Position numbers and translations under genes: made by a program. This document shows, in pieces, positions 3,258 through 7,685 of a stretch of 64,000 bases of DNA (position 1 is the stretch's first letter; each line of letters begins with the position of its first letter). A model generated the notes under the pieces. It was not told where the DNA came from. It made no database searches and saw only the letters and a list, made by a program, of their open reading frames with translations. This stretch comes from an uncultured Pseudomonadales bacterium (lineage in GTDB: Bacteria; Pseudomonadota; Gammaproteobacteria; Pseudomonadales; Azotimanducaceae), in the NCBI GenBank assembly GCA_951813515.1, contig OX638346.1, forward strand, positions 1,233,617 to 1,297,616, read 5' to 3'.

Positions 3258-3749
3258 ATGCCCGCAAAGAACATGAAAACCTCGTCAGGATCCGGGTCGA
3301 CGGGGCTTGAAGCCGCCGCATTCGTTTTGGTGGATTCTCCGTTCAGGAACTTCGTGCCCTACGACCCGGCCGAAGGCGAGCCGTATATGGGTCAATCGCA
3401 ACTGGACCATTTCCGGAAAATGCTGCTCGATTGGCGCCGCCAACTCATGGAGGAGGTTGATCGAACCGTCAACCACATGCAGGACGAAGCCGCCAATTTC
3501 CCCGATCCAGCGGACCGGGCGACCCAGGAGGAGGAGTTCAGCATCGAACTCAAGACCCGCGACCGCGAACGCAAACTCATCAAGAAGATCGCCGAAACGC
3601 TGGAACGCATCGACACGGAAGACTACGGCTACTGCGATACCTGCGGCGTGGAGATCGGCCTGCGCCGCCTCGAAGCTCGGCCAACCGCCTCGCAGTGCGT
3701 GGACTGCAAGGCCTTGTCGGAACTGCGCGAACGGCAGCTTCACGCCTGA
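3258..3749 (+). CDS. dksA: RNA polymerase-binding transcription factor DksA
   Basis: Binds the RNA polymerase secondary channel and, with ppGpp, represses rRNA promoters and activates amino-acid biosynthesis promoters. The coiled-coil tip DPADR within DEAANFPDPADRATQEEEF carries the two essential aspartates, and the C-terminal zinc finger is CxxC-x17-CxxC (CDTCG...CVDC). From the ATG at 3258 the protein is 163 residues, slightly longer than the E. coli protein because of an N-terminal stretch before EPYMGQSQLDHF. An in-frame TTG at 3240 would add six residues; AAGGA lies only two bases before the ATG, so the start is unsettled. gluQ follows 35 bases downstream, the usual pairing. Confidence 0.95.
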   Translation: MPAKNMKTSSGSGSTGLEAAAFVLVDSPFRNFVPYDPAEGEPYMGQSQLDHFRKMLLDWRRQLMEEVDRTVNHMQDEAANFPDPADRATQEEEFSIELKTRDRERKLIKKIAETLERIDTEDYGYCDTCGVEIGLRRLEARPTASQCVDCKALSELRERQLHA

Positions 3750-3784
3750 TCCCTACCAGTTCGCGTTCAGCCTCCAGCCGGGGA

Positions 3785-4654
3785 GTGCGATACGTCGGGC
3801 GCTTTGCGCCGACTCCTTCCGGACCTCTCCATTTCGGCTCACTGCTCACCGCCGTTGCCAGCTACCTGGAAGCACGGTGCATCGAAGGCGAATGGAAGCT
3901 ACGCATAGATGACCTCGACGCTCCACGCGTCGAACCCGGCGCCATCGACGAGATTCTTCGAACGCTAGAGTGTCACGGCCTATGCTGGGATGGAGGAATC
4001 TACTACCAGAGCACGGCCACGGACCGCTATGAAGCGGCCATCGAGACGCTGATCGGCCAGGCGCTGTGTTTCGATTGCACCTGTAGCCGCAGGGACCTGC
4101 GGAACCACGTTGTCTACCCGGGAACGTGTCGGCATCGACCCGCGCGACAGCGCGACAACGTGGCGATACGGATTCGTGTCCCGCCGATAGAGTTCGAATT
4201 CGAAGACCGTCTAGGCGGTTATTTCGCACACAACCTGGCCGAAGACGTCGGCGATTTCGTAATTGTCCGTCGCGACCGGATTATCGGCTACCAGCTCGCC
4301 GTGGTGGTCGATGACGATGCCATGGGAGTCACCGATGTCGTCCGTGGCTCGGACCTGTTCGACAATACGCCCCGCCAACTATTCCTGATTGAACATCTCG
4401 GTTTCTCGGCGCCGCAGTACACCCACGTCCCCGTGATCACCGAACGCAGCGGCGTAAAGTTGTCGAAACACACACTCGCCACCGCGATAGACAATCGCTT
4501 TCCCGCGCAGAACCTGCGCACCGTTCTCGATCTCCTGGGTCAAAACCCGCCCATGCTCGCAACCGTGGATGCCCTGTTGGATTGGGCGACCTCGTACTGG
4601 CGACTCTCGGCGGTGCCACGAGGCGCAACCCTGGAGACCTGGCAGAGCATCTGA
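3785..4654 (+). CDS. gluQ: Glutamyl-Q tRNA(Asp) synthetase
   Basis: Truncated glutamyl-tRNA synthetase paralogue that attaches glutamate to queuosine-34 of tRNA(Asp). It contains the catalytic core only: GRFAPTPSGPLHFGS holds the HIGH-like motif, the zinc-binding set is CFDCTC...Y..GTC, and KLSKH is the KMSKS-equivalent. There is no anticodon-binding domain, as expected for the family. GTG at 3785 gives MRYVGRFAPTPSG, the canonical start of GluQ-RS, and a length of 289 residues (family about 290-310); the frame is open further upstream inside dksA but that sequence is not GluQ-like. It lies 35 bases after dksA, as in E. coli and Pseudomonas, and is followed by the 45-bp repeat array. Confidence 0.95.
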   Translation: MRYVGRFAPTPSGPLHFGSLLTAVASYLEARCIEGEWKLRIDDLDAPRVEPGAIDEILRTLECHGLCWDGGIYYQSTATDRYEAAIETLIGQALCFDCTCSRRDLRNHVVYPGTCRHRPARQRDNVAIRIRVPPIEFEFEDRLGGYFAHNLAEDVGDFVIVRRDRIIGYQLAVVVDDDAMGVTDVVRGSDLFDNTPRQLFLIEHLGFSAPQYTHVPVITERSGVKLSKHTLATAIDNRFPAQNLRTVLDLLGQNPPMLATVDALLDWATSYWRLSAVPRGATLETWQSI

Positions 4655-4692: not shown

Positions 4693-4895
4693 CTCACGCT
4701 CCGGTTGAGTTCCACCTTGCTTGCGCGGGGCCCTCTCGCGCTCCCCGGCTGAGGGCTCTCTTCTCGCGAGGGCAAAACCCCTCGCGCTCCCCGGCTGAGG
4801 GCTCTTTCTTGCGAGGGGAAAACCCCTCGCGCTCCCCGGCTGAGGGCTCTCTCTTGCGAGGGGAAAACCCCTCGCGCTCCCCGGCTGAGGGCTCT
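4693..4895. repeat. Tandem array of about 45-bp palindrome-containing repeats
   Basis: Four near-identical units begin with CTCGCGCTCCCCGGCTGAGG at 4735, 4781, 4826 and 4871 (spacing 46, 45, 45), preceded by a degenerate unit at 4693 (CTCACGCTCCGGTTGAG). Each junction contains the inverted repeat GCGAGGGG/CCCCTCGC around AAAA, so the array can form successive hairpins. One further copy of the same unit lies at 40501-40538. The array fills the gap between gluQ and the CbrB-like gene. The units abut with no unique spacers, so it is not a CRISPR array. Confidence 0.9.
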
Positions 4896-4924
4896 CCAAC
4901 CGTCTTTTGGTAGCATCGGATTCT

Positions 4925-6289
4925 ATGTCGCACGTTCTTGTTGTTGAGCCGAACCCTGGATACCGCGCGCATCTGTGCGATCTGCTGGAACGCAATGGCT
5001 ATGCCGTCGACCACGCTGCGCGATTTCCGCAATCAATCGGAAAGACGTTTGCGGCGGTCGTGGCCAACGCGCGCCTGGCGGAGCCCGGCACCGTCTTGCC
5101 GACGGACCAGAACCTCCCTCTCATTCTGATCGCCGACCAGGCAAACATACGCGCCGCAGTCGACGCCATTCGAGAAGGCGCGGCCGACTACCTGCCGCGC
5201 TCTTTCGAACCCGGAGAACTGCTGGAGACGCTTGAACGCGTCATCTCTCTGGATGCCGAGGAGGCTCAGCAACCGCCCCGATACGACACTTGGCTCCTGC
5301 GTGGCTCCTGCGCGGCGATGCGGGAACTGTTCCAGAGCATAGAGATGGTCGCGCCCACCGAGTCAACCGTGTTGATTGAAGGGGAGCCCGGAACCGGCAA
5401 GGAACTCGTGGCCCGCGCGCTCCACTCATCCGGGCAGCGTCGACAAGCACCACTGATGACCCTTAACTGCGCGGGCACTCCCCAGCCGCTCATCGAATCG
5501 GAACTGTTCGGCCACGGCCCGGTCAACGCCCCAGCCGCAGGACTTCTGCAGGCCTCAGACGGCGGCACCCTTTTTTTGAAAGAAGTCGGCGAGTTACCGC
5601 TCTCGACGCAAGACCGTCTGATCGACTTCTTCCGCGGGTCTGCAACGCGAAACGCACCCTCGTCGGGCGTCGATGGCAACGCGCCAGTGCCTTTGCCCGA
5701 TGTCCGCGTCATCGCATCGACGCACCACAACATCGGGCGTTTGGCGGAGAACGGGCAGTTTCGTGAAGAGCTGTTCCGTCACCTTAACTCGGTGACGCTG
5801 AAGGTCCCGCCGCTGCGCAGCCGCGGCAAGGATATCGTCGAACTCGCCAAGGGGTTGCTTGCCCGGCATGCCGTTTCCATGAACAAGTCCGGATTGAGAT
5901 TCTCCGACGACGCGCTTGCTGCCATTGCGGAGTACCACTGGCCCGGAAACCTGCGCGAACTCGAAAACGCCGTCGAGCGCGCTGTCATTCTGTCGGGACA
6001 CAGCGTGATTGGAGCGGAACTTCTTGCCATCGACGCCGGTCGACTGCAGGACGCCAGCCGGATGGACGGCGAATCGGATCAAGGCGCGATTGACGACGAC
6101 CCGGGAGACCATGTCTCTCTGGAGGACTATTTCGTCAAGTTCGTTACCGACAACCAGGAACGATTCACCGAGACCGAACTGGCCGCAAAGCTCGGCATCA
6201 GCCGAAAGAACCTCTGGGAGCGGCGCAAGCGCTACAGCATTCCCCGCCGGCGAACGCGTACTCGCCGACCGCGACGGGACTTCGGCTAG
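4925..6289 (+). CDS. CbrB-like NtrC-family regulator, apparently degenerate
   Basis: 454 residues with the three-part NtrC layout: a receiver-like domain (1-110), an AAA+ domain (about 125-365) and a C-terminal Fis-type helix-turn-helix (ETELAAKLGISRKNLWERR, near the end). Position between gluQ and pcnB and the ending RRKRYSIPRRR match Pseudomonas CbrB. Key residues are missing. The receiver begins VVEPN without the acidic pair, and the phosphorylated Asp position is Asn48. The GAFTGA loop that contacts sigma-54 is absent: FGH runs straight to GPVNAPAAGLLQASDGG, about five residues short. The Walker B motif reads FLKEVGE, with Lys219 replacing Asp. Walker A (GEPGTGKE) and the REELFRHLN arginine are kept. 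No cbrA kinase gene is present. It probably binds DNA without acting as a phosphorylated sigma-54 activator (inference). ATG at 4925 is chosen over an upstream TTG at 4907. Confidence 0.85.
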   Translation: MSHVLVVEPNPGYRAHLCDLLERNGYAVDHAARFPQSIGKTFAAVVANARLAEPGTVLPTDQNLPLILIADQANIRAAVDAIREGAADYLPRSFEPGELLETLERVISLDAEEAQQPPRYDTWLLRGSCAAMRELFQSIEMVAPTESTVLIEGEPGTGKELVARALHSSGQRRQAPLMTLNCAGTPQPLIESELFGHGPVNAPAAGLLQASDGGTLFLKEVGELPLSTQDRLIDFFRGSATRNAPSSGVDGNAPVPLPDVRVIASTHHNIGRLAENGQFREELFRHLNSVTLKVPPLRSRGKDIVELAKGLLARHAVSMNKSGLRFSDDALAAIAEYHWPGNLRELENAVERAVILSGHSVIGAELLAIDAGRLQDASRMDGESDQGAIDDDPGDHVSLEDYFVKFVTDNQERFTETELAAKLGISRKNLWERRKRYSIPRRRTRTRRPRRDFG

Positions 6290-6392
6290 TGGACTGACGG
6301 GCCCGCCGAGCACTTACCTGCACGTCGGACTTTCCCTTTTTCGACCGGCAACCTAACATCCCCTACGACAAACCCGATCAGCGATTGTTTCT

Positions 6393-7685
6393 TTGAGCGA
6401 AGCGCCACCTCTCCAGACCGTCAATCCGCAGCTTGACCAGAGCGTCCTGTCGGCGAACGCGGTGACCGTCGTCAAGGCGCTACGCGAAGCGGGATTCGAC
6501 GCCTACCTGGTCGGTGGCTGCGTGCGGGATCTGCTGCTTGGCAGGACGCCAAAGGACTTCGATGTCGCAACGGATGCCACGCCGGAGGAAGTCAAGGCCG
6601 CTTTCTCCCGGGCGCGTCTCGTTGGACGACGATTTCGCATAGCCCACGTACAGTTCCGCAGAGAGTACATAGAAGTCTCCACCTTCCGGCGCGGCAATCC
6701 CGAAGAGACGGACGAAGGCGAAGCCGGCTTCGATGGGAATGATCGCTCGGTGGATGGCGTCATCCTGCGAGACAATCTCTACGGGACGCGAGATGAAGAT
6801 GCGCTTCGGCGCGATTTTACTGTCAATGCCCTCTACTACGATCCCATCGATGACGTGCTGCTGGACTACAGCAATGGCTTGCGCGATATCAGCGATCGTA
6901 CGCTTCGAACCATCGGCGACCCGATGACCCGTTTTCGGGAAGACCCTGTTCGCATCCTGCGAGCGGTAAGGTTCGCGGCCAAGCTCGATTTTCGATTCCA
7001 TGCCGACACCGAGCGCGCCATTGCGCCGCTCGCCGAACTATTGACCGCGATATCGCCGTCGCGCCTGTTCGACGAGTTCAACAAGCTGTTCATGCGGGGA
7101 CACGCTGTCGCTGCGTGGGAGCTCATGCACCGCTTCGGCCTTCCCGAAATCCTCTTTCCGCTGTTCGAAAACGAGGATTCCATCGTCCGTGCGGCGCTGC
7201 AGAGCACCGACGAGCGCATCCGGGAGGACAAGCCGGTGACGAGCGCTTTCCTGTTTGCCGCCATGTGCTGGCCGGAGTTCCAACGGCGCAGTGCGCTCTC
7301 TGCCACCGCAAGGAATGCAGCGGACGAACGCCTGAAGGCCGCCCATGCGGTCATCGGCGAACAGGCGTTGACCGTCGCAATTCCCCGGCGCCTGACCTTT
7401 TTCATCCGCGATGTGTGGCGACTGCAGACGCGCCTGGAGCGGAAAACAGCGCGCGGCATGCTCGATCATCCCCGATTTCGGGCGGCTTACGACTTCCTCG
7501 CGATTCGCGCGAAGGTGGGCGAAGCGGACCCTGATCTCGTGCAATGGTGGACCGACGCGCAGACGGAACGAGGGGCGGAAGGGGATAGCCCGACGACGCA
7601 ACCTCGAACGCAACCTCGAAGGCGCCGACGCCGACGGTCTCGTGGTCGCAGAGCCGCAGATGGCCGCCAGGTTCGTCCCCAGTAG
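6393..7685 (+). CDS. pcnB: Poly(A) polymerase I
   Basis: Adds 3' poly(A) tails that mark RNA for decay. It has the class II nucleotidyltransferase head with GGCVRDLLLGRTPKDFDVAT (catalytic aspartates in DFD), then the RRDFTVNAL and tRNA-nucleotidyltransferase-like RNA-binding segments (FREDPVRILRAVRFAAKL), and finally a strongly basic tail (RRRRRRRSRGRR) typical of PcnB rather than of CCA-adding enzymes. Length is 430 residues (E. coli about 465). The best start is TTG at 6393 giving MSEAPPLQT; no good ribosome site is seen. Its place upstream of the pan genes is conserved, but the deoxynucleoside kinase that follows stands where folK usually is. Confidence 0.94.
   Translation: MSEAPPLQTVNPQLDQSVLSANAVTVVKALREAGFDAYLVGGCVRDLLLGRTPKDFDVATDATPEEVKAAFSRARLVGRRFRIAHVQFRREYIEVSTFRRGNPEETDEGEAGFDGNDRSVDGVILRDNLYGTRDEDALRRDFTVNALYYDPIDDVLLDYSNGLRDISDRTLRTIGDPMTRFREDPVRILRAVRFAAKLDFRFHADTERAIAPLAELLTAISPSRLFDEFNKLFMRGHAVAAWELMHRFGLPEILFPLFENEDSIVRAALQSTDERIREDKPVTSAFLFAAMCWPEFQRRSALSATARNAADERLKAAHAVIGEQALTVAIPRRLTFFIRDVWRLQTRLERKTARGMLDHPRFRAAYDFLAIRAKVGEADPDLVQWWTDAQTERGAEGDSPTTQPRTQPRRRRRRRSRGRRAADGRQVRPQ

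Follow-up and report, generated by a model that had tools for sequence, protein, structure and literature searches.

An orphan CbrB ortholog that has lost its kinase gene, phosphoacceptor aspartate, GAFTGA loop and Walker B aspartate

The window, a stretch of 64,000 nucleotides (64 kb) from an uncultured Pseudomonadales bacterium, carries the gene order sfsA-dksA-gluQ-X-pcnB-dNK-panB-panC-pgi, which is the neighbourhood of cbrAB in Pseudomonas. X is an uninterrupted frame of 454 amino acids that begins at the ATG at 4925. The identical block was found in Pseudomonas fildesensis and in the majority of the order's other families, with cbrA filling the gap, while in the window the slot between gluQ and pcnB holds a cbrB ortholog and the cbrA slot itself is empty. 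This confirmed the proposal of an earlier note on this DNA that the gene occupies the cbrB site of the Pseudomonas order (gluQ-(cbrA)-cbrB-pcnB) and that cbrA is missing. No cbrA was found elsewhere in the genome, where a CbrA probe matched generic kinase domains only (best E 1.8e-16). In all orthologs, cbrB lies in the same genomic place. The features of the locus are as follows.

3695..4654, plus strand: gluQ, the upstream neighbour, which marks the cbrAB site (open reading frame as listed; the true start is possibly further in).
4908..4916, plus strand: extended -10 element TG-G-TAGCAT, 8 nt before the ATG, a probable sigma-70 promoter (consensus match).
4925..6289, plus strand: orphan, degenerate CbrB ortholog of 454 aa, stop at 6287-6289 (open frame, Pfam, synteny, orthologs).
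4925..5260, plus strand: degenerate receiver, about residues 1-112, with P9, N10, N48 and no Thr/Lys (alignments; modelled fold, pLDDT mostly >80).
5066..5068, plus strand: Asn48, at the position of the phosphoacceptor Asp (alignments).
5297..6034, plus strand: AAA+ domain and lid, about residues 125-370 (Pfam, AlphaFold2 model, Foldseek).
5381..5404, plus strand: Walker A, GEPGTGKE, kept (alignments).
5510..5524, plus strand: G-H-G-P-V where GHEKGAFTGA would stand, the L1 (GAFTGA) loop being deleted.
5579..5581, plus strand: Lys219, at the position of the Walker B Asp, with Glu220 kept (alignments).
6110..6247, plus strand: Fis-type DNA-binding domain, almost as in CbrB and the slowest domain, with no rate change (alignment).
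6248..6286, plus strand: basic C-terminal tail.
6393..7685, plus strand: pcnB, the downstream neighbour, 103 nt from the orphan gene, the crcZ position being gone.

Pfam matched Sigma54_activat (PF00158, 133.8 bits) and the AAA lid (66 bits) in the 454-aa protein far over their cut-offs, the receiver below its cut-off (22.8 vs 30.2) and the Fis-type helix-turn-helix slightly under its own. Residues were called from an alignment with 30 NtrC-type proteins and again with the P. fildesensis CbrB and 93 other orthologs, with the same result. Column 48, a near-invariant Asp among the 30 NtrC-type proteins, is Asn in the window protein, and the decay of the receiver extends beyond the losses first listed: Pro9-Asn10 replace the acidic pair, and Ala and Arg stand at the positions of the switch Thr and the Lys. 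The L1 segment, ten residues in full (GHEKGAFTGA), has shrunk to GHGPV, leaving gaps at the G-F-T columns, and column 219, again a near-invariant Asp in the NtrC-type proteins, is Lys, the Walker B motif reading LFLKEV. Arg280 is kept, and the second arginine-finger position is His286. The Walker A Gly-Lys is conserved in all orthologs. The three losses claimed in the earlier note (Asn48, the GAFTGA loop and Lys219) were thus borne out, and neither a GAFTGA nor a receiver Asp was restored at a shifted position by alignment. Its description of the DNA-binding end as CbrB-like was likewise upheld by the ortholog alignment, in which the CbrB-type motif TETELAxKLGISRKxLWERR is preserved. Judged by gene order and by this domain, the product of 4925-6289 is a genuine CbrB ortholog.

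The same note had left the presence of rpoN to be checked. The gene was found in the genome, together with only two other clear activators, both of which have a perfect GAFTGA; the exit from sigma-54 is therefore specific to the orphan cbrB. An AlphaFold2 model built from the window protein and its relatives only had all three domains folded (mean pLDDT 85.3, low at the linker 377-396 and the insert 243-250), and its Foldseek matches were full-length NtrX, NtrC1, NtrC4, LuxO, FleQ and VpsR. From this model, the fold is expected to persist despite the residue losses.

Two elements lie in the DNA flanking the orphan gene. A GC-rich repeat of 45 bp (core CTCGCGCTCCCCGGCTGAGGGCTCT) occurs in four head-to-tail copies at 4715-4895, between gluQ and the orphan cbrB; it was rejected as a feature of cbrB, being dispersed over the genome at about 50 further places, often in short tandem arrays. 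Between the orphan gene and pcnB, a TAACAT at 6354-6359 (in CCTAACATCCC) is nearly invariant in four aligned members of the genus and resembles a -10 box serving pcnB itself.

The comparison set comprised 95 orthologs, mainly from the window's family and mostly from draft genomes. On a FastTree phylogeny of dksA, gluQ and pcnB, cbrA was lost about five times while cbrB was retained in the genomes seen, the absence of cbrA being uncertain for G107 and G026 (contig edges). Both GAFTGA and the receiver (D-E, D, T, K) are intact in all 25 CbrB proteins with an adjoining cbrA. The receiver is degenerate in most of the orphans that keep GAFTGA. Most of the loop-less orphans fall into a single large clade, with G011 as a separate loss, and the changes of the Walker B Asp fall within this clade and include the whole window genus. 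Rates were taken as branch lengths on a fixed tree relative to the marker (neighbour) genes, in the classes cbrA+, cbrA- with the loop, and loop-less. The relative rate of the receiver was 0.44, 1.91 and 2.67 in these classes, respectively, that of the AAA+ domain 0.61, 0.60 and 1.22, and that of the DNA-binding domain 0.29, 0.49 and 0.30, the last without lasting change. Without cbrA, the receiver evolves about six-fold faster; acceleration of the AAA+ domain, about two-fold, is seen only after the loss of GAFTGA.

In Pseudomonas, crcZ lies directly 3' of cbrB and is driven by CbrB with sigma-54 (PMC8871633). Sigma-54-type promoters at this position were defined as matches to the consensus TGGCAC-N5-TGC, usually about 110-250 nt past the cbrB stop. 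They were found in 18 of 25 cbrA+ genomes, in 17 of 18 cbrA- genomes with GAFTGA (35/43 for all with GAFTGA) and in 1 of 48 loop-less ones, counts that do not represent independent events as most loop-less genes share one ancestor; chance expectation was <1 in each class. The loop-less class has a median cbrB-pcnB gap of 85 nt, and its A-rich motifs of the Hfq/Crc type are down to none. These motif counts were added because Rfam CrcZ exceeded its cut-off in just 1 of 38 genomes. The window's own 103-nt gap holds no sigma-54 promoter, CbrB site or Rfam CrcZ. In G012, the sigma-54 promoter has already been lost with GAFTGA intact, which suggests that loss of the target came first there. The aligned orthologs show an order in which the loss of cbrA was followed by decay of the receiver, and the loss of the sigma-54 promoter/crcZ position and of GAFTGA by that of the catalytic ATPase residues.

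Several orphans with GAFTGA, such as G078, G095 and G137, have exact or near-exact CbrB sites downstream of cbrB. These proteins probably still drive the downstream sigma-54 promoter without a kinase, a plausible reading given that CbrB retains about 40% of its activity in vitro when unphosphorylated (PMC8871633). In G111 (L163), G095 (L164), G137 (L166) and G078 (L169), the gap measures 650-820 nt and contains an exact or near-exact CbrB site and a sigma-54 promoter without A-rich Hfq motifs; another sigma-54-driven RNA or small gene has possibly replaced crcZ there.

Three further observations concern individual lineages. The phosphosite Asp is Glu, with GAFTGA intact, in three separate cbrA-less lineages (G012, L031; G036, L051; G070, L217). 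Glu is a common mimic of the phosphorylated state, and the change is as expected for a phosphomimetic, always-on CbrB. A separate cbrA-less lineage (G071, L194; G122, L210; G090, L212) has GAFSGA instead of GAFTGA and has kept an A-rich downstream gap, GAFSGA being probably a working variant of the loop. Finally, full cbrA-cbrB pairs, most with a sigma-54 promoter downstream, were present across about a dozen families within the order (L032, L034, L037, L039, L040, L042-L044, L046, L048, L049 and others), in contrast to the statement of a 2022 review that CbrAB is unique to Pseudomonadaceae (PMC8871633).

Besides these losses, the loop-less orphans have gained two features. The basic C-terminal tail, RRTRTRRPRRDFG in the window (family consensus KKTRKRGPRR), is common to them and absent from cbrA-partnered CbrB. 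The second is the extended -10 at 4908-4916, which reads TGGTAGCAT in the window. Scored as TGnTAnnWT 5-10 nt upstream of the ATG, it was present in 26 of 48 loop-less orthologs vs 0 of 46 others (Fisher p 3e-10, a value that overstates independence since most loop-less genes share one ancestor). The -10 hexamer was found in 36/48 vs 4/46, with the shared pattern TTTG-N-TAnnAT right before the start codon, and Shine-Dalgarno-like sequences were rarer in the loop-less genes (2/48 vs 13/46). No other open reading frame of at least 120 aa in the 64-kb window has an extended -10 before its ATG. The element is a probable sigma-70 promoter yielding a leaderless mRNA, as the spacing of 6-10 nt would place the transcription start at or beside the ATG. 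A reading of the element as a CbrB half-site was rejected because TTTTGGTAGCAT or TTTTCATAGCAT, and not TGTTAC, stands in the window and its two nearest relatives.

The explanation that we consider probable is that the orphan CbrB has been retained as a DNA-binding regulator independent of both phosphorylation and sigma-54. The sequences show that, once the kinase gene cbrA was lost, the receiver decayed; in lineages that lost the downstream sigma-54 promoter/crcZ position, the GAFTGA loop and then the catalytic ATPase residues followed. The DNA-binding domain has stayed under unchanged constraint, the basic tail was gained and the loop-less genes acquired their sigma-70-type extended -10. Expression level, set by this promoter, may then replace phosphorylation as the means of control. 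The protein would bind ATP with little or no productive hydrolysis and would assemble or dimerise through its AAA+ core. At ordinary sigma-70 promoters it would act most simply as a repressor occupying DNA, or else by contacting sigma-70 polymerase. The suggestion of the earlier note, a phosphorylation-independent repressor or a sigma-70-type regulator, fits the loss of the phosphosite and of the sigma-54 contact, but no target site was found to accompany it.

A sub-case of this explanation is activation with sigma-70 polymerase, as for NtrC of Rhodobacter capsulatus and Caulobacter, with nucleotide binding controlling assembly. The Walker A Gly-Lys in all orthologs is in keeping with this, as are the reports that GAFTGA-less NtrC acts at sigma-70 promoters and that the R. 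capsulatus protein needs ATP binding but not hydrolysis (PMC10274813). However, the NtrC proteins of R. capsulatus and Caulobacter keep and use the phosphorylated Asp and the orphan CbrB does not, and no site pattern favours activation; this form of the explanation is conceivable but was judged to be on the unlikely side.

The canonical CbrB operator, TGTTAC-N12-14-GTAACA, has no exact site in the genome or genus of the window. With up to two mismatches and a spacing of 13, the genome contained 24 sites vs 89 in the reversed control. As the canonical site is not enriched, either the operator sites would have relaxed or the binding specificity would have moved; CbrB has been described as binding variable half-sites (PMC8871633). 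Action at dksA-pcnB, which the earlier note had singled out for binding assays, consequently received no support from sequence. The orphan could alternatively regulate no more than its own dksA-gluQ-cbrB-pcnB block, as a local autoregulator, which would agree with the same location in all orthologs and with the very short gap before pcnB in many loop-less genomes. Yet, the -10 element apart, the sequences upstream of dksA, near gluQ and in the gluQ-cbrB and cbrB-pcnB gaps yielded neither a shared dyad nor a CbrB half-site, and a purely local role is considered improbable.

It is a little harder still to regard the orphan cbrB as a slowly decaying remnant without important function and heading for deletion. 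Such a remnant would be consistent with the stepwise loss of all catalytic features, with the accelerated evolution of the receiver and AAA+ domain, and with the complete absence of the gene from some family members. A full-length ortholog was found in 80 of 108 good-quality genomes of the family, and no convincing stand-alone remnant of the DNA-binding domain was seen in 20 genomes lacking one; with about 26% of the good-quality genomes devoid of a full-length ortholog, the gene is dispensable in some lineages. Against this, the check for purifying selection proposed in the earlier note gave a dN/dS of about 0.2 for orphan cbrB (range 0.05-0.25), comparable to that of gluQ. The window's gene and that of G003 differ by a dN of 0.17 and a dS of 0.85, and the closest pairs within the genus gave dN/dS ratios of 0.15, 0.19 and 0.25, with gluQ at 0.15-0.21 in those genomes. 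The DNA-binding domain, whose rate is unchanged, has a dN of 0 in the three closest pairs. The decay by stop codons that the note had named as counter-evidence was not seen: none of the 95 orthologs has a broken frame, the four flagged stops being ordinary gene ends. With the gain of a conserved tail and of a dedicated promoter-like element, these data support the inference from the long intact frame that the gene is still used. Continued action as CbrB at sigma-54 promoters, through another contact or hetero-oligomers with an intact activator, is highly improbable. In its favour, rpoN and two intact activators are in the genome and unphosphorylated CbrB is about 40% active in vitro (PMC8871633). 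Against it, the L1 loop is missing in the entire clade, the neighbouring sigma-54 promoter disappeared along with it, and the window genus, or parts of it, has lost the Walker B Asp and one Arg finger.

The retained regulator may be placed in a wider scheme, which we put forward tentatively and with some doubt: within one family, a full two-component sigma-54 switch could have been turned stepwise into a constitutively expressed DNA-binding protein with a basic tail and a leaderless promoter, serving a new regulon through a new operator. The orthologs provide a natural series of intermediates in how an enhancer-binding protein is dismantled (kinase, receiver, target promoter with the sigma-54 loop, and last the ATPase residues, while DNA binding is spared). 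With them, it can be tested which components of a sigma-54 activator matter after it has left sigma-54.

Among known systems, the CbrB of the CbrA-CbrB pair in Pseudomonas and Azotobacter is orthologous by gene order and DNA-binding domain and has the same three-domain build. Unlike it, the orphan is without CbrA, the phosphoacceptor Asp, GAFTGA, the Walker B Asp and the crcZ position, and has an extra basic tail and its own -10 element. The GAFTGA-less NtrC of R. capsulatus and Caulobacter, for which action at sigma-70 promoters has been reported (PMC10274813), shares the deletion of the L1 loop in an otherwise NtrC-type protein but still has its kinase, NtrB, and a phosphosite Asp that functions, and it comes from a different orthologous group. 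A further NtrC-type protein without GAFTGA, Vibrio cholerae VpsR (VspR in the spelling of PMC10274813), works together with sigma-70 and independently of phosphorylation; it was among the PDB matches (7v2b) of the orphan model. In contrast to the orphan, VpsR has retained the Asp site, is a c-di-GMP-binding protein according to the title of PDB 7v2b and has a different gene neighbourhood. HP1043, likewise an orphan regulator, functions without phosphorylation and has a highly degenerate receiver (PMC8345958); unlike the orphan CbrB, it is of the OmpR/PhoB family and has no AAA+ domain. An orphan CbrB of this type was not reported in the literature searched, the coverage of which was incomplete. 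Loss of GAFTGA with sigma-70 action (PMC10274813) and orphans with degenerate receivers (PMC8345958) were thus already known; what is new is the combination of all these losses in one protein, together with ordered intermediates and gained features.
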